Position numbers and translations under genes: made by a program. Shown piece by piece: positions 39,248 through 57,491 of a DNA stretch of 64,000 nucleotides. This stretch comes from Candidatus Woesearchaeota archaeon. GTDB taxonomy: Archaea; Nanobdellota; Nanobdellia; Woesearchaeales; DSVV01. How positions within the stretch are numbered: position 1 is the stretch's first letter; each line of letters starts with the position of its first letter. The stretch spans positions 1 through 64,000 of the forward strand of contig JACPTB010000013.1 of assembly GCA_016192995.1 (NCBI GenBank), written 5' to 3'. Under the pieces are notes generated by a model. It worked only from the letters and a program-made list of their open reading frames with translations, made no database searches and had not been told where the DNA came from.

Positions 39248-39844
39248 ATGGAAACGACAAATATCATCTCATTGAGAAAAACATTTTCCAATAACAAGCC
39301 ATTCCCTTATCTTATAATACCTAATTCTCTTGAAAAACAACAAGCGCAAAAAATCAAGGAAGCATTAATTCAAGAAACTTTTTATGAAAAACAATCAGAT
39401 TTATTCAAATTCAAGCAAACAAATGATCTCGCAAGTACAAAAAACAAGTATCTAATTGAATGTAGAAATTTTCTTAAATCAAAAGACTTCATCAAATATC
39501 TTGAATCAATAACGCAAGTCAAATTGAAAGAAAACTCTATTGATCTTGCAGGAACATTATATGAAGACACAGATTTCTTGCTCTGTCATGATGATAAACT
39601 TGAAGGAAGAAAAATTGCCTTTATCTATTATCTTTCAACCTTAAAAAAGAGCGAGGGAGGTACGCTTAATTTTTTTAAACACAACAACTATCATCAACCT
39701 ACAACGATTGCTATTAAAATTAAGCCTTTGTTTAACACCTTTGTTTTCTTCAAAGTTTGTCCAGAGTCATTTCATGAAGTTGAAGAGGTTATAGGCAAGA
39801 CAAAGCGGTATGCTTTGTCAGGGTGGTTTCATGGAAATAATTAA
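39248..39844 (+). CDS. 2-oxoglutarate/Fe(II) dioxygenase, Tpa1/Ofd1-like prolyl hydroxylase
   Basis: 198 residues. The double-stranded beta-helix is readable, with the iron ligands H-x-D in DFLLCHDDKLEGRKIAFIYYLS, GGTLNFF, a distal His in PESFHEVEEV and the 2OG-binding Arg in TKRYALSGWF. The sequence resembles the catalytic half of the Tpa1/Ofd1 family, whose members hydroxylate a proline of ribosomal protein uS12. That substrate is family knowledge and is not shown here. The stop overlaps the next gene, which resembles the second, non-catalytic half of the same family. Confidence 0.82.
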   Translation: METTNIISLRKTFSNNKPFPYLIIPNSLEKQQAQKIKEALIQETFYEKQSDLFKFKQTNDLASTKNKYLIECRNFLKSKDFIKYLESITQVKLKENSIDLAGTLYEDTDFLLCHDDKLEGRKIAFIYYLSTLKKSEGGTLNFFKHNNYHQPTTIAIKIKPLFNTFVFFKVCPESFHEVEEVIGKTKRYALSGWFHGNN

Positions 39845-40403
39845 TCCAGAATATAAACAAAATGAAACCATGACATCTATTAAAAAAATATTCGAGAAAA
39901 AAGCACCAATTCATGCAGTACAATTAGAAGATTTTTTCCAACCAAATATCTACAAATTGCTCAAGAAACAGATAACCTCATTAAAATATACTTTAAATTA
40001 TCAACCATTGCAGCATCATTATAAAGTAGCAGCTCCGAATAATATCATGACTAACATTTTTGAACATAAAGAATTTCTGTCAATAGTACGGGCAATTACA
40101 GGCTGCGCTATTAAACAAAGCTCGAGTTTAGCATTTCAATTATCATGGAAAGATTACGAGATTCTTCATGACAATAAAGCAGAAGAACAAGGAATAGAAT
40201 TAGTATTTGATGCAACAGATGCTTGGAACGAAGCTGCAGGTGGCGCTATCATCTATAAATCAGCTGCGTCATCAATAAGCATACCTTCAAAGCCAAATGC
40301 TATCACTATTATCAAGAAAACAAAACAGATAACGCGATGTATACAATATATTAATCATAACAGTATTAATAATAAAAAGTATCTTTTTATTATTAAACTT
40401 TAA
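39831..40403 (+). CDS. Second 2OG-oxygenase-fold protein (Tpa1/Ofd1 C-terminal-domain-like)
   Basis: 190 residues from the ATG at 39831 (in-frame upstream codons lie inside the previous gene). The core SWKDYEILHDNKAEEQGIELVFDATDAWNEAAGGAIIYK copies the strand order of a 2OG-oxygenase beta-helix, with LHD where the H-x-D would stand. The distal His/Arg region (TRCIQYINHNSINNKKYLFIIKL) is atypical. In yeast Tpa1 and fission yeast Ofd1 two such domains are fused, the second being inactive; here they appear as separate overlapping genes. Convergent with PCNA, with stops overlapping by four bases. Confidence 0.7.
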   Translation: MEIINPEYKQNETMTSIKKIFEKKAPIHAVQLEDFFQPNIYKLLKKQITSLKYTLNYQPLQHHYKVAAPNNIMTNIFEHKEFLSIVRAITGCAIKQSSSLAFQLSWKDYEILHDNKAEEQGIELVFDATDAWNEAAGGAIIYKSAASSISIPSKPNAITIIKKTKQITRCIQYINHNSINNKKYLFIIKL

Positions 40404-41194: not shown

Positions 41195-41198
41195 AATT

Positions 41199-41263
41199 AT
41201 ATAGTTAAGTAGATACAACCCTTTCCTATGTAATAGGGAAGGGTTATATCTACGTAACTATAT
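41199..41263 (-). terminator. Long imperfect hairpin between the tRNA-Leu gene and the PCNA promoter
   Basis: Arms 41199-41229 and 41233-41263 pair at 28 of 31 positions around a 3-base loop. It begins a few bases after the T5 tract that follows the tRNA discriminator base, so it could stop read-through from the tRNA into the PCNA promoter. A regulatory role for PCNA is also possible. Confidence 0.55.
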
Positions 41264-41289
41264 ATGAAAGAAAAATGAGGGGATAGGGA

Positions 41290-41313
41290 CTTTCAACACC
41301 AATTATTGGTATT
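41290..41313 (-). other. 24-base bulge-helix-bulge intron in the tRNA T loop
   Basis: The fold is a textbook archaeal splicing motif: outer helix TAGGG/CCCTA (T stem), 3-base bulge AGT on the 3' side, central 4-bp helix TTCA/TGAA, 3-base bulge AAA on the 5' side, and inner hairpin ATACC/GGTGT. Cutting after the second base of each bulge joins TTCAAA to T, restoring a normal seven-base T loop. Confidence 0.85.
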
Positions 41314-41343
41314 TTTGAACCCTAGTAGGCACTAAGCCAATAG

Positions 41344-41433
41344 ATGGCCCATCGAGTATATCATTGATTTCTTGTGGAAACCTCATCACTCATAACTTGA
41401 GTTTGGACTTTTAAGCACCTTGGTGCCAAAAAA
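41344..41433 (-). other. Anticodon-loop region containing further tRNA intron sequence
   Basis: These 90 bases lie between the two strands of the putative anticodon stem and must hold 7 loop bases plus about 83 intron bases. Hairpins GCACC/GGTGC and GGTTTC/GAAATC are visible. A possible second bulge-helix-bulge pairs TCCA with TGGG, with bulges AAC and CCA. Removing one simple intron does not give a leucine anticodon, so probably two introns are nested or adjacent here. Confidence 0.5.
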
Positions 41434-41498
41434 CTATCCCGTTTGGCCACTCCGGCATCCCCTCATACTTCTAAGAACAAAGTAATAGTTTATAAAAT

Positions 41499-52536: not shown

Positions 52537-53973
52537 ATGTTTGACCGATTAAAACAACAATACATCGATGGCATTTATCAGTCAGGAGCTTTTTTGATTA
52601 AAGAGGAGCCTTTCACCTTGCGTTCAGGAATTAAAAGTCATATCTATATCGATCATAAAAGGTTTTTGACAAATCATACAGGCTTAAAAATAGTTATTAA
52701 TAATTTTTTTTTGATGTTAAAGGAAAAAGTTGATCATTTTACATTTGTAGTTGTTGACTCTATTATGAGTCCGATTCTTGGAAGTACCATGGCAACGATG
52801 TTGGATAAAGATCTCGTGATTATTAAAGAAGAGCAAGCTCTTCATGGTACGAGGGAAAAAACCTACGGCATAATTCATCCTAATCAAGAATATGTTATTA
52901 TTGATGATTTAATCTCAACAGGCAGCTTGGTGATGAATGCTGCTAAACCAATTAGGGAGTTAGGTGGTATTGTGAGATATGCAGTCGTTTGCACAGTGCG
53001 GGAAGACGCTGTAATTAAAGAGCTTAATAATCATGGAATTGAAGTTATATACATCTCAACAATTAACGAAATTCTCGAATATTTAAAACCAACCTTAACA
53101 CAACAAGAACAGCAAATAGTTGAAGACAAACATCAATGTACTACCTCATACCTGTACGAACGAATGAAAATGTCATATCAAGAGCGAAGTGAGCTTGCTA
53201 AAAACAGTGTTGGTAGAGCGTTGTACAGAATTATGGAAAAAAAGAAAACAAATTTAATCCTGTCTGCGGATGTAACTAAAGCAGATAAGGTAATAACAAT
53301 TGCCCGTGAATTAGGCCCATTTATTGTAGGATTGAAAACTCATATTGATATTATAGATGATTTTAACCAGCAAATGATTAATGATTTGCAAACTATTGCA
53401 GATGAGTATGAATTTTTAATTTTTGAAGATCGGAAATTTGCTGAAATTGGAAATACTGCGCAGCTGCAGTATAAACATGGTGTGTATCATATCATTACTT
53501 GGGCAGATATAGTCAATGCACATAGTGTTCCTGGGGAAGGTGTTGTGCAAGGATTATGTACTGCAGCTAAAGAGCACTATGAGCCGCGAGGTTGTTTATT
53601 AATTGCACAGATGTCGAGTAAGAATAATCTTGTTACTCGTGAATATTCTCAAAAAACATTGGAAATAGCAGAGTTATTTCCTGATTTTGTTATAGGATTT
53701 ATTGCAACAGGCGGTGATCCTTTAAAGCTGCGTTCTTTTGCCCATAAAGTTCCGCCGCATTATCTTTTAATAACACCAGGAATTAGGTTTGGGAGTAAAG
53801 CAGATACTATGCAGCAGAGTTATGGAACACCTGAAGAAGCAATACATGCTGGGTCTGATATTATTATTGTTGGTAGGGGCATTTACGAATCGCAGGATAT
53901 GAAGGAGACTGCGAAACAATATAGGGACGCAGGATGGAAAGCATATGAAGAAAGAAAGAATATTGTTCCCTAA
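52537..53973 (+). CDS. Eukaryote-like UMP synthase: OPRT domain fused to OMP decarboxylase
   Basis: 478 residues from the ATG at 52537; an in-frame GTG three codons earlier overlaps pyrE. Residues 1-200 form a PRTase domain (FTLRSGIKSHIYIDHKRFL, PRPP loop VIIDDLISTGSLV). Residues about 215-478 are OMP decarboxylase of the eukaryotic type: NLILSADVTKADKV, GLKTHIDII, FLIFEDRKFAEIGNT, AHSVPGEGVVQGL, LITPGIRFGS. In the catalytic D-x-K-x-x-D array, Asp298 and Lys300 are present but the last Asp is Glu303, read directly from codon GAA. It would convert orotate to UMP through OMP. Stops overlap with the convergent subtilase by four bases. Confidence 0.93.
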   Translation: MFDRLKQQYIDGIYQSGAFLIKEEPFTLRSGIKSHIYIDHKRFLTNHTGLKIVINNFFLMLKEKVDHFTFVVVDSIMSPILGSTMATMLDKDLVIIKEEQALHGTREKTYGIIHPNQEYVIIDDLISTGSLVMNAAKPIRELGGIVRYAVVCTVREDAVIKELNNHGIEVIYISTINEILEYLKPTLTQQEQQIVEDKHQCTTSYLYERMKMSYQERSELAKNSVGRALYRIMEKKKTNLILSADVTKADKVITIARELGPFIVGLKTHIDIIDDFNQQMINDLQTIADEYEFLIFEDRKFAEIGNTAQLQYKHGVYHIITWADIVNAHSVPGEGVVQGLCTAAKEHYEPRGCLLIAQMSSKNNLVTREYSQKTLEIAELFPDFVIGFIATGGDPLKLRSFAHKVPPHYLLITPGIRFGSKADTMQQSYGTPEEAIHAGSDIIIVGRGIYESQDMKETAKQYRDAGWKAYEERKNIVP

Positions 53974-56900
53974 CGCTGATATTCCCATAGATAATCTTGT
54001 GTTACTTTTCTAAATTCATACCCTCTCCCAGGTTCAAAGCAGTCAAGAGTGCCTTGCCATGATCCATCGCTTTGTTTTACTGCAGTATCATACGTTTTAG
54101 AGGCACTATTATAAGCAAAAATACTATCTCCACTTTTGGCTTGGGATAATAATGTTGAAAATCCACATTTTTTCTGGCTGCTAAACCAACCAGCTAAATT
54201 GACTTCCCTTCCAGTTCCTGGAATTCCAGAACTCTGAACTAAAGAAAGAGTATAATTATTTGTTGGAACAGTGCCGATTAAAGTAATATTATAATCAGCA
54301 GTAGGTTTAAATACATACGCTTTATCATAACTCACTAAAGAAAAATCTCCATACCAGTTTTGATTGATACGCTGAACTGCAACAGTTTTATTTAATGCAG
54401 TATCATAAGAATAAATCATATCGTTTTCATTCCCATTATCAAATGCTTTAGATATGTTGAGATCATCGAGGATTAATGGTAGAGAAATAATTGTTTGTGG
54501 TGCAGTTATAGCAAGATCAAATCTTGCTATAACTGCACTAGATAAATTTTTATTAGTCCCATTAATTGCAGCAATAGCATAATAACGCTGCCCAACAAGT
54601 TCTGAATCTAGATAATAACTATCTGTCAACCCACTAACTTGTGGTTGAGCAGTAGCAAGAGCAAGTTGAAGTAAGACTGTTGCATTATCATTATAGTAAA
54701 TATTATAACTTACTGCATCAGCAACAGGATTCCATGAAAGAGTAATCGTAGTATTGTCTGTTTTTTTAATACGGAGGTTTTCAGGAGCATGAGGAGTAAA
54801 GATTATTGAATCTAAAACAGTGATATTTCCTGTTGCATTCAACATATCAAACAAAGGATGACTGCAACTTACATTGTAAGTAAATATTCCACTTTCAGGT
54901 AAAGTATCAGTAAATTCATAGAGATTTTTAGTTGCATTGAATTTCATAGGTACATTTGTACCTATGAAATTCAATGAACAATTTGCATCAAGTAATGGTG
55001 TTCCATCAGTTCTATTAGTAAAATTAGCAAGAATAGTTGCTTGTTGAAATTGGTAGATAGTGTTGTTTCCAAAAGGCTTGTCATCACCACTATCCCATAT
55101 ATCTAATACGCTGGTCGCGCCTTCAATAACACTATAATTACTAAAACTCTTGACGTTAAAGGTAACTTTGTTATCAACATAACTTTCAACAACACAGTCA
55201 TTGCATATAGTGCCGTCTTTCAAGATATGGGGAATAGCAAATGAAATATTTTCTAAGCTGACAGTTGCGCTTTTATTAAAAGAACTATGCAAACTATTGC
55301 TGTTTACATAAACAAAATTATTTTGAATGATTATATTGTTTGAAAGATCTTGGTCAAGAACATAAACAGATTTATCCCAAACAATCTTCCCAAATTTACT
55401 TTTTTCAAGCGTTAAGTTTTGAACTTGTTTTAAATCAGAAACTGTTTCAAAGATTGTGGTGGTTCCATCAAATCCATTTATTGTTGGTAATAAGTACAAC
55501 GCTCCACGAACAACTAAAGCAAATGGCTGCGGTCCTTGGGGGATATTAAATCCTTTGATCTTAACAGTATAACTTCCTTGTTCAGGTATATTGATTACTA
55601 TTTGTTCAACATTATTTAATACATCGACAACATCATTAAATGGAGATATAAAATCATTGCCATAGTAAATAGTTCCAGAGGGGGAAATAACTTCTAAATT
55701 AAGATCATTAACTAACAAAGGGTTGTTATTAACATTTGCTGGTGTTGCATCAGTCCAAACAAGAGTAATTTTCAAAGGTTTGTCAGTTGCAACATTATAG
55801 GGATAGTTTTTTTCTTGAGTTGTTTGTATACCTAACTGTTCGTCAACATATTTAATATAAATATTTCCTGTGGGTAAAAGTGTATTAGTTAAATTAATTC
55901 TTCCCCAACCGCTTGCATTGCTTGGTAAGCTATGGCCAGGCAATTGAACTGCGCCGTTGATTAATAATGCTTTAATTAATGCAGCACTTGGATTGGAAAA
56001 TTTTTGATTCAGCAGTAAATCTTGCCTTACTAATGCTCCAACGCCAGCAGCTAAGGGCGTAGCCATGCTTGTGCCAGAACAATAACTATAATCATTAGTA
56101 GCGCCAGAACTCACACAGGGTTGCGCAATACTGCTTTTCAAAGAATAAATAAACTGCCCAGGTCCAACAAGATCAGGTTTAACTCTTCCATCATCAGTTG
56201 GTCCTCTACTGCTTGAGCTGGCAATGACATCTGGATCGTCATTGGTTCCACTTAATGTTTTGCTCAAAACAGATCCAATAGTTAAAGTGTTTTTTGCTGT
56301 TGCAGGATAACCAACCGTATTATCTCCATTTCCCCCGCTATTTCCTGCAGCAAAATAAATAAGAATATCCTTATTATTCCACATGAAATCATCTACTTTT
56401 TGAGAAAGTGAATTATAACTGCCATCAGGGAATTTATGCCCCCAGCTATTACTATGAATTCGTGTATTCTTATCGTAAGCATCGTTTAATGTTTTTTGTA
56501 ATTGTCCCGGAGTGCTAAGGCTAAGTCCTTGTCCATCATCAGTGCCCATAGCAGTAAAAAAAAGTTCTGCTTGAGGTGCAGTTCCCTTGTATAACAAATT
56601 GGATTTATTTCCATCGCCTAATGCAGATCCTGTAACATGCGTTCCATGGCCATTCTCATCATCTGGTGAACTGCAACCAGAACACCCGTTGATCAGGGAT
56701 AAACTAATAACTCTTCCTCTAATATCAGGATGAATTGTTTGAAGATCACCAGTGTCTAATCCGGTATCAAGAATCCCAATAATTTGCCCTTCTCCATCTA
56801 AGCCCAAATCATTTTCAACACCGGGAACTTGGAGAACTTCTCTGCCGCGATCGTTATAAACACTAAGTTCAGGTAGTTGTTCAACATAAGCAATCTCTGG

Positions 56901-57491
56901 TTGCTGCGTCAATGAAATCAACTGTTTTTTTGTTGCATGTATCTGGAGATTATTTTCTTGGCTGGTAACAACAGAATTGCCTAATGCCTGAATAATCTTT
57001 TCAGCATCTTCTTTTTTATGGAGAAAAACATTGACTAAAAATGTTTGATCTTCTTGAACAGTATCTAGTTTCAGCTGAACATCAGCAGGCACTTTATAGG
57101 CAGGTTTATACAGCGTAATGCTTTTAACAAAGTTTATTTTTCTTATATCCTCAAGTTTTTCAGGATTCATCTGAACTTTAAAGGTATAGTGGGGAATATA
57201 ATAATAAAACATAACGCCATATTCTTTCAGATATTGTTTCCATGATTCTTGTACAGGCCCAATAAATTGGAGGAGGTAATATTCTTGAGCTGAAACTGCA
57301 GAAACTTCTTCTTTTTCTATTCGGTGATTATCAATAATCACTGAAGTATCATACTGTTGGTATTCAGTAAGATTGAGTTCGGCATTAACCTCTTCAATAG
57401 ATTTCATCTTTTTTTGAGAGTTGCAGCTTACAAGAAATAGGAGTACTAACGATAATAAACCGACAAGAATCACTAAGCTCTTTTTTTTCAT
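53970..57491 (-). CDS. Subtilisin-like serine protease, probable surface lipoprotein
   Basis: 1173 residues. The N-terminus is a lipoprotein-type signal (LLSLVLLFLVSC; Cys23). After a propeptide-like region comes the S8 domain (about 230-560): Asp in GQIIGILDTGLDTGD, His in DENGHGTHVTGSALG, oxyanion Asn in YFAAGNSGGNGD and Ser in CSGTSMATPLAAGVGAL. A P-domain-like beta region follows, then a fibronectin III module (PHAPENLRIKKTDNTTITLSWNPVADAVSYNIYY) and a C-terminal beta-rich part. It likely degrades or matures proteins outside the cell. Two perfect palindromes (18-bp arms at 54500-54538; 20-bp arms at 54935-54976) lie in the frame. Confidence 0.94.
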   Translation of the reverse strand: MKKKSLVILVGLLSLVLLFLVSCNSQKKMKSIEEVNAELNLTEYQQYDTSVIIDNHRIEKEEVSAVSAQEYYLLQFIGPVQESWKQYLKEYGVMFYYYIPHYTFKVQMNPEKLEDIRKINFVKSITLYKPAYKVPADVQLKLDTVQEDQTFLVNVFLHKKEDAEKIIQALGNSVVTSQENNLQIHATKKQLISLTQQPEIAYVEQLPELSVYNDRGREVLQVPGVENDLGLDGEGQIIGILDTGLDTGDLQTIHPDIRGRVISLSLINGCSGCSSPDDENGHGTHVTGSALGDGNKSNLLYKGTAPQAELFFTAMGTDDGQGLSLSTPGQLQKTLNDAYDKNTRIHSNSWGHKFPDGSYNSLSQKVDDFMWNNKDILIYFAAGNSGGNGDNTVGYPATAKNTLTIGSVLSKTLSGTNDDPDVIASSSSRGPTDDGRVKPDLVGPGQFIYSLKSSIAQPCVSSGATNDYSYCSGTSMATPLAAGVGALVRQDLLLNQKFSNPSAALIKALLINGAVQLPGHSLPSNASGWGRINLTNTLLPTGNIYIKYVDEQLGIQTTQEKNYPYNVATDKPLKITLVWTDATPANVNNNPLLVNDLNLEVISPSGTIYYGNDFISPFNDVVDVLNNVEQIVINIPEQGSYTVKIKGFNIPQGPQPFALVVRGALYLLPTINGFDGTTTIFETVSDLKQVQNLTLEKSKFGKIVWDKSVYVLDQDLSNNIIIQNNFVYVNSNSLHSSFNKSATVSLENISFAIPHILKDGTICNDCVVESYVDNKVTFNVKSFSNYSVIEGATSVLDIWDSGDDKPFGNNTIYQFQQATILANFTNRTDGTPLLDANCSLNFIGTNVPMKFNATKNLYEFTDTLPESGIFTYNVSCSHPLFDMLNATGNITVLDSIIFTPHAPENLRIKKTDNTTITLSWNPVADAVSYNIYYNDNATVLLQLALATAQPQVSGLTDSYYLDSELVGQRYYAIAAINGTNKNLSSAVIARFDLAITAPQTIISLPLILDDLNISKAFDNGNENDMIYSYDTALNKTVAVQRINQNWYGDFSLVSYDKAYVFKPTADYNITLIGTVPTNNYTLSLVQSSGIPGTGREVNLAGWFSSQKKCGFSTLLSQAKSGDSIFAYNSASKTYDTAVKQSDGSWQGTLDCFEPGRGYEFRKVTQDYLWEYQR
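54500..54538. repeat. In-frame perfect palindrome (18-bp arms) in the subtilase gene
   Basis: GTGCAGTTATAGCAAGAT (54500-54517) is followed by CAA and its exact reverse complement (54521-54538). Confidence 0.88.
54935..54976. repeat. In-frame perfect palindrome (20-bp arms) in the subtilase gene
   Basis: CATTGAATTTCATAGGTACA (54935-54954) is followed by TT and its exact reverse complement (54957-54976). Confidence 0.9.

Follow-up and report, generated by a model that had tools for sequence, protein, structure and literature searches.

The locus described here lies within a 64,000-nt stretch of DNA from a Candidatus Woesearchaeota archaeon (contig JACPTB010000013.1; this whole stretch is referred to as the window), where a tRNA-Leu(CAA) gene on the minus strand is interrupted by three predicted archaeal introns with bulge-helix-bulge (BHB) splice motifs. 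Its parts are arranged as follows:

41276..41464, minus strand: tRNA-Leu(CAA) gene with three predicted introns (precursor 189 nt, mature 84 nt; from ARAGORN on the spliced sequence)
41434..41464, minus strand: exon 1, tRNA positions 1-30
41403..41433, minus strand: predicted intron 1, 31 nt, at 30/31, relaxed BHB (from BHB pairing; absent in the orthologue of genome G004)
41396..41402, minus strand: exon 2, ACTCAAG, positions 31-37, with anticodon CAA (from ARAGORN on the spliced sequence)
41346..41395, minus strand: predicted intron 2, 50 nt, at the canonical site 37/38 (from BHB pairing)
41314..41345, minus strand: exon 3, positions 38-59, with the long variable arm, the 5' strand of the T stem and TTCAAA
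41290..41313, minus strand: predicted intron 3, 24 nt, in the T loop at 59/60 (from BHB pairing; 59/60 introns also occur in tRNA-Leu genes of G002, G003 and G004)
41276..41289, minus strand: exon 4, with U60, the 3' strands of the T stem and acceptor, and discriminator A
41489..41497, minus strand: TATA-box-like TTTTATAAA, some 25-33 nt upstream of the tRNA start

Excision of all three introns leaves a canonical tRNA in which every stem is intact. ARAGORN calls this 84-nt sequence as tRNA-Leu(caa), with an acceptor stem of 7 bp, a D stem of 3 bp, an anticodon stem of 5 bp closing the loop CTCAAGA, a long variable arm, and a T stem of 5 bp closing the loop TTCAAAT; it makes no call on the unspliced precursor. 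Neither ARAGORN in default mode nor Rfam at its gathering threshold finds a tRNA in the window, which is to be expected because the gene has three introns. When intron 3 is removed and introns 1 and 2 are kept, ARAGORN returns a false tRNA-Gly(gcc). AT boxes like TTTTATAAA also precede several of the genome's other tRNA genes, near -30 to -34.

The original prediction had described the T-loop intron of this gene, in which it was correct to the base, and had overlooked the two introns at 41433-41403 and 41395-41346. The T stem that it proposed is present on the minus strand as TAGGG (41324-41320) and CCCTA (41288-41284), the central helix TTCA (41319-41316) with TGAA (41295-41292) is Watson-Crick at 4/4 pairs, the bulges are AA↓A and AG↓T (arrows, predicted cuts), the inner hairpin has seven contiguous pairs, and taking out exactly 41313-41290, that is the 24 nt between tRNA positions 59 and 60, restores the T loop TTCAAAT. 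Intron 3 is accordingly a strict hBHBh' motif, with an outer helix of 5 bp that is the T stem itself and an inner helix of 7 bp. When the intron is dinucleotide-shuffled 100,000 times with the exon held fixed, 0.033% of the shuffles give the full central helix together with at least five contiguous inner pairs. Folding the RNA on its own puts the BHB form at -12.0 kcal/mol, 1.6 kcal/mol less stable than the fold of lowest energy (-13.6 kcal/mol); that fold has a 6x6 internal loop in place of the central helix, and the pair probabilities of the central helix are only about 0.1. Intron 3 is almost certainly spliced, and it is a known kind of intron in an unexpected setting.

The central helix is complete (4/4 pairs) in all three introns, with one G-U pair each in introns 1 and 2. 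Intron 1 has the central helix GGAT/GTCC (one G-U), bulges AG↓T and AA↓A and an inner helix of 4 bp; tested as a strict hBHBh' motif it fails, the outer helix being only 1 bp. Intron 2 has the central helix CTCA/TGGG, and its outer helix measures 1 bp while intron 1 is present and 6 bp once intron 1 has been removed. Because the anticodon stem forms as the outer helix of intron 2 only then, intron 1 probably leaves before intron 2. The same logic of splicing order is set out for other multi-intron tRNAs in a section of the tRNAscan-SE 2.0 paper (PMC8450103).

Orthologues were sought by DNA search of the family's 11 genomes and read by eye. In G004, which belongs to another genus, the Leu(CAA) gene is missing intron 1, and the exon reads GGGATAGACTCAAG unbroken, exactly at the predicted junction. 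On this unbroken 30/31 junction we reject a single long anticodon-loop intron in place of the 30/31 and 37/38 pair. The G004 gene does have an intron at 37/38 and another in the T loop, the latter with a core unrelated in sequence, and its inferred mature tRNA is identical to that studied here at 84/84 positions. Other Leu(CAA) genes have introns in the D loop, at 37/38 and at 59/60 (G002), in the D loop and at 37/38 without a T-loop intron (G001, locus L037), at 37/38 alone (G010), or none at all (G008, L042). The Leu(TAG) genes of G001-G006 have a 30/31 intron with GGAT/GTCC every time (six measured: L038, L039, L040, L044, L045 and L053), and those of G002 and G003 have a 59/60 intron. Two 37/38 introns, that of G004 L034, with 3/4 central pairs, and that of L044, whose central helix is broken at the boundaries tried, were left out of the argument. 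Because introns come and go while exons stay, the inserts, on this comparative evidence, behave like introns and not like decay.

The original prediction had placed non-canonical archaeal tRNA introns chiefly in certain crenarchaea and a few further archaea, too narrow a range for what this lineage shows. The 59/60 motif, written as the pattern GGTTCRAAN{12,40}TGAANGTCC, has 348 matches in 165 of the 287 genomes of the order, and its control, the reversed pattern (counted by hand), has 14 matches in 13 genomes. In a draw from the phylum the pattern is present in 68 of 147 genomes; by hand count these are 62 of 103 within the order and 6 of 44 outside the order in the class. The surmise that the intron belongs to a DPANN genome is borne out, and the one relative found among named genomes for the neighbouring PCNA is from a Woesearchaeota MAG (63% identity). 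Predicted excision was examined at 59 sites in 58 loci, made up of the 30 best pattern loci, 20 partly chosen for intron similarity and 8 from the phylum draw. With the predicted intron deleted, ARAGORN calls a tRNA across the junction at 55 of the 59 sites, compared with 2 of 59 when it is left in place; at the remaining 4 of 59 no tRNA appears after excision. When the boundaries are shifted by 4 nt, 52 and 43 of the 59 are still called, and at 6 nt 20 and 14, so that ARAGORN supports the place of the intron and not the exact base; for the boundaries to the base we rely on the BHB and the identity of the exons. The tested inserts measure 18-46 nt and fall under 17 isotype labels, some of which may be wrong where other introns remain. 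Since 57 of the 59 unspliced sites give no ARAGORN tRNA even when anticodon-loop introns are allowed, such genomes can seem to lack tRNAs that they have.

Within the genome that carries the window, an Rfam tRNA search gives 31 matches with E no higher than 1, of which 27 score above the gathering cut-off (hand count), and further introns were found by eye among these loci; tRNAs with complicated introns were probably missed. There are two more T-loop introns, in tRNA-Phe(GAA) (31 nt) and tRNA-Asp(GTC) (39 nt), and other non-canonical introns in Asn(GTT) at 53/54, Arg(TCT) at 28/29 and Gln(TTG) at about 10/11. All five have 4/4 central pairs. The Phe and Asp introns have an outer helix of 5 bp and no inner helix directly at the bulge, and the outer helix of a strict hBHBh' motif is not found in Asn 53/54, Arg 28/29 or Gln about 10/11 (0-1 bp). 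For an insert in the D loop of tRNA-Cys(GCA) (L026, G000:C5:140296-140362) none of the four registers tried gave a clean 4-bp central helix. A D-loop insert is also seen in a Gly(TCC)-like tRNA (L029, G000:C7:133155-133205). At L025 (G000:C5:78856-78913), a tRNA-Val(TAC)-like locus, the 3' half of the acceptor does not follow the T arm, which may mean that the gene is broken or hides one more intron.

Several T-loop introns recur in different tRNAs. In G195, near-identical introns of 41-42 nt occupy the T loops of four genes, three of them Arg(TCT), Ser(TGA) and Gln(TTG), and for the pairs among these three the core identity is 91%, with 0 of 1000 shuffles as good. Near-identical T-loop introns in different tRNAs of one genome point to transposition or conversion between tRNA genes; intron transposition between tRNA genes has been reviewed for Thermoproteales (PMC4033280, in the part concerned with these introns). 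Within one genus the introns of G003 Leu(TAG) and G004 Leu(CAA) are 87% identical in the core, and G004 Leu(TAG) has no T-loop intron. Related T-loop introns are also found in G001 Ser(GCT), G002 Leu(TAG), G004 Glu(TTC) and G028, and between the Leu(CAA) T-loop introns of G000, the genome studied here, and of G002 the likeness is weak (5 of 1000 shuffles as good). The three T-loop introns within G000 are not alike (458 of 1000 shuffles as good for Leu vs Phe, 455 of 1000 for Leu vs Asp), and recent copying inside this genome is therefore not claimed. In one family outside the order, G290 and G325 share near-identical T-loop introns at several sites, apparently a mobile intron family.

The genome encodes one EndA, of 182 aa, on contig 15, with the N- and C-terminal domains PF02778 and PF01974, and an RtcB (E 5e-172). 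Searches with PF01974, PF02778, TIGR00324 and a beta-subunit model find no second EndA gene in this 99.6%-complete genome. The type of endonuclease, which the original prediction had proposed to identify, is thus given by a single one-unit EndA of alpha4 length with both domains and no paralogue, and would be alpha4, the oligomer being predicted from sequence; an acidic DDEGD segment at residue 167 is only suggestive for a homotetramer. Against PDB sequences the protein matches the Nanoarchaeum equitans catalytic subunit (3iey_A) and the M. jannaschii alpha4 enzyme about equally well (E-values 2.7e-33 and 2.9e-32). Tyr118, His128 and Lys159 are kept and align with the M. jannaschii catalytic triad. 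The enzyme resembles M. jannaschii alpha4 EndA (PDB 1a79) in length, in domains, in its aligned catalytic residues and in having no loop insertion. Across the order an EndA match is present in 259 of 287 genomes and is the only one in 252 of those 259 (hand count), in open frames that, as listed with start codons unchecked, are mostly 173-270 aa. No insertion of the ARMAN type, at the site of ARMAN-2 Lys161, was seen among the aligned EndA sequences of the order (n=149, 6 unmeasured): the turn at this site is 8-10 residues long in the order, compared with 8 in M. jannaschii and 12 in ARMAN-2 (135 sequences measured 8-10 by regular expression, 8 overshot and are 9 by eye, and 6 were missed).

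A basic residue at EndA position 45 was considered as a determinant of T-loop introns and rejected. A hint came from the first 29 of 37 sequences, where the T-loop pattern was present in 16 of 24 genomes with Lys or Arg and 0 of 5 others. In 112 further sequences the figures were 52 of 89 and 13 of 23 (one of the 23 being an incomplete sequence with a gap; p = 0.53), and for all 149 they are 71 of 118 and 13 of 31 (p = 0.053). By phmmer residue 45 stood opposite ARMAN-2 Lys161; in the final alignment ARMAN-2 has Asn in that column.

Collectively, these results make it very probable that the locus is a functional tRNA-Leu(CAA) gene with three archaeal BHB introns, spliced by a single-gene EndA of the alpha4 type together with RtcB. 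EndA would cut each 3-nt bulge after its second base and RtcB would join the exons. For the T-loop intron, the T stem would serve as outer helix and the near-invariant T54-T55-C56-A57 would pair with the TGAA of the intron, making 59/60 a ready-made splice site that does not depend on isotype. As T54-T57 are nearly uniform, an intron ending TGAANG could presumably be spliced from any tRNA, and since a complete BHB can be built from sequence that almost every tRNA has, related T-loop introns could spread between tRNA genes.

Set against this is the idea that the locus is a decayed pseudogene, a former tRNA-Leu broken by insertions whose UUG codons are decoded by other tRNAs. The genome does have a tRNA-Leu(TAA) (L022) that might in principle wobble-read UUG, so that the essentiality of Leu(CAA) is unproved. 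However, every stem is intact after excision, the exons match those of another genus at 84/84 positions despite diverged introns, the three separate insertions each have a matching 4-bp BHB at their ends, and a TATA-like box lies at the usual distance. The original prediction had named a complete intron-free tRNA-Leu set, together with lack of expression, as grounds for calling this gene a pseudogene, and these grounds do not hold: searching the genome (99.6% complete, 16 contigs) with the spliced 84-nt sequence finds no second Leu(CAA) gene, returning only two exon pieces of the gene itself and tRNA-Leu(TAG). Pseudogene status is on these grounds unlikely, indeed very improbable. Still harder to credit is removal of the T-loop insert in some other way, for instance by self-splicing as a ribozyme or by nucleases other than EndA. 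A group I core needs more than 18-46 nt, and the inserts are too short for one; they bear the BHB complement of the exon, and Rfam has no match in the window at its gathering threshold. This route is brought to mind by group I introns, which part of one account reports in Woesearchaeota rRNA (PMC6125680).

A more serious competitor to splicing by a lone alpha4-type EndA concerns the enzyme, which could be a heteromeric or loop-bearing endonuclease of broad specificity whose beta subunit falls into a gap of the assembly or has diverged beyond detection. The relaxed motifs of several introns of the genome would suit such an enzyme, as would the best PDB match, since 3iey_A comes from a two-subunit enzyme. 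Nevertheless, profile searches give one gene in a 99.6%-complete genome, 252 of the 259 genomes with a match have exactly one, Y118, H128, K159 and the acidic DDEGD segment are retained, and the ARMAN loop site is without insertion in the sequences examined from the order; we consider this alternative unlikely. The original prediction had held that a broad-specificity endonuclease is needed, which finds no support for intron 3 with its strict BHB, a single EndA of alpha4 length being present and a beta subunit not found with the model used. The position of intron 3 alone needs no relaxed specificity because the strict BHB uses the T stem as its outer helix. It is the relaxed introns beside it that make the specificity of this EndA the question worth testing.

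In crenarchaea, including Thermoproteales, non-canonical BHB tRNA introns number up to three per tRNA according to parts of several accounts (PMC8450103, PMC4033280, PMC6379350). More widely, many such introns are described, in the sections consulted, from crenarchaea, Thaumarchaeota, ARMAN and two Asgard groups, and T-loop BHB introns, three introns per tRNA and intron transposition are all known (PMC6379350, PMC8450103, PMC4033280, PMC12397907, PMC11291895). As far as the relevant parts of the reviews go, non-canonical introns are tied to enzymes with gained loops or extra subunits and alpha4 enzymes cut canonical BHBs only (PMC4033280, PMC6379350, PMC4090602), relaxed motifs being poorly handled by the latter (PMC6379350, PMC4033280). 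The introns described here resemble those of Thermoproteales and other crenarchaea in the BHB at the junction, the T-loop and other non-canonical sites, the three introns in one gene and the transposition between tRNAs. However, the crenarchaeal systems, in the accounts cited, have (alpha-beta)2 heteromers, which in Crenarchaea carry a loop insertion, whereas here there is one alpha4-type gene without ARMAN-type insertion, in a DPANN order in which 59/60 is recurrent. ARMAN-2 (Micrarchaeota) is likewise a DPANN archaeon with non-canonical introns; its epsilon2 enzyme is described, in part of the source, as a three-unit fusion with an ARMAN-specific loop that carries Lys (PMC12397907), whereas the present enzyme has one unit without insertion at the aligned site. 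The Asgard Atabeyarchaeia and Freyarchaeia, from a different phylum, similarly have many non-canonical tRNA introns, with multiple introns in over half of their tRNA genes by the portion of that study concerned (PMC11291895), which does not bring up the T-loop site, the type of endonuclease or families of introns. Alpha4 enzymes, in the passages that treat them, are described with canonical strict BHBs only (PMC4033280), unlike the T-loop and relaxed introns found here.

This makes an order in which a genome usually has a single alpha4-type gene, and in which T-loop introns are common, an exception that tests the rule of co-evolution between intron and enzyme. In the open-access literature, the search of which left subscription papers, including the 2003 and 2008 intron surveys, mostly outside, we came across no account of Woesearchaeota with BHB introns in their tRNAs. 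Within that literature the abundance of such introns in a DPANN order, the recurrence of the T-loop site and their occurrence beside a single alpha4-type enzyme appear to be new. More tentatively, and with slightly less than even confidence, we propose that the alpha4 endonuclease found throughout the order is broad-specific with none of the known auxiliary loops, and that mobile BHB introns can land in the T loop of any tRNA. Such an enzyme would support multiple, relaxed and non-canonical introns, and the invariant TTCRA would, in each tRNA, supply half of the splice motif. That conserved tRNA sequence supplies this half suggests a simple reason for the spread of the introns.

Other features of the window lie outside the tRNA gene. 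An inverted repeat with 32-nt arms (91% complementary) and a 3-nt loop stands at 41198-41264, between the 3' end of the tRNA-Leu and the start of the PCNA gene, and has only sub-threshold, miRNA-like Rfam matches. At 53970-57491 an ORF of 1173 aa has matches to subtilisin-like (S8) proteases below curated cut-offs, and at 39248-40403 two adjoining ORFs have Pfam matches of the 2OG-Fe(II) oxygenase type (PF13661 and PF10637).
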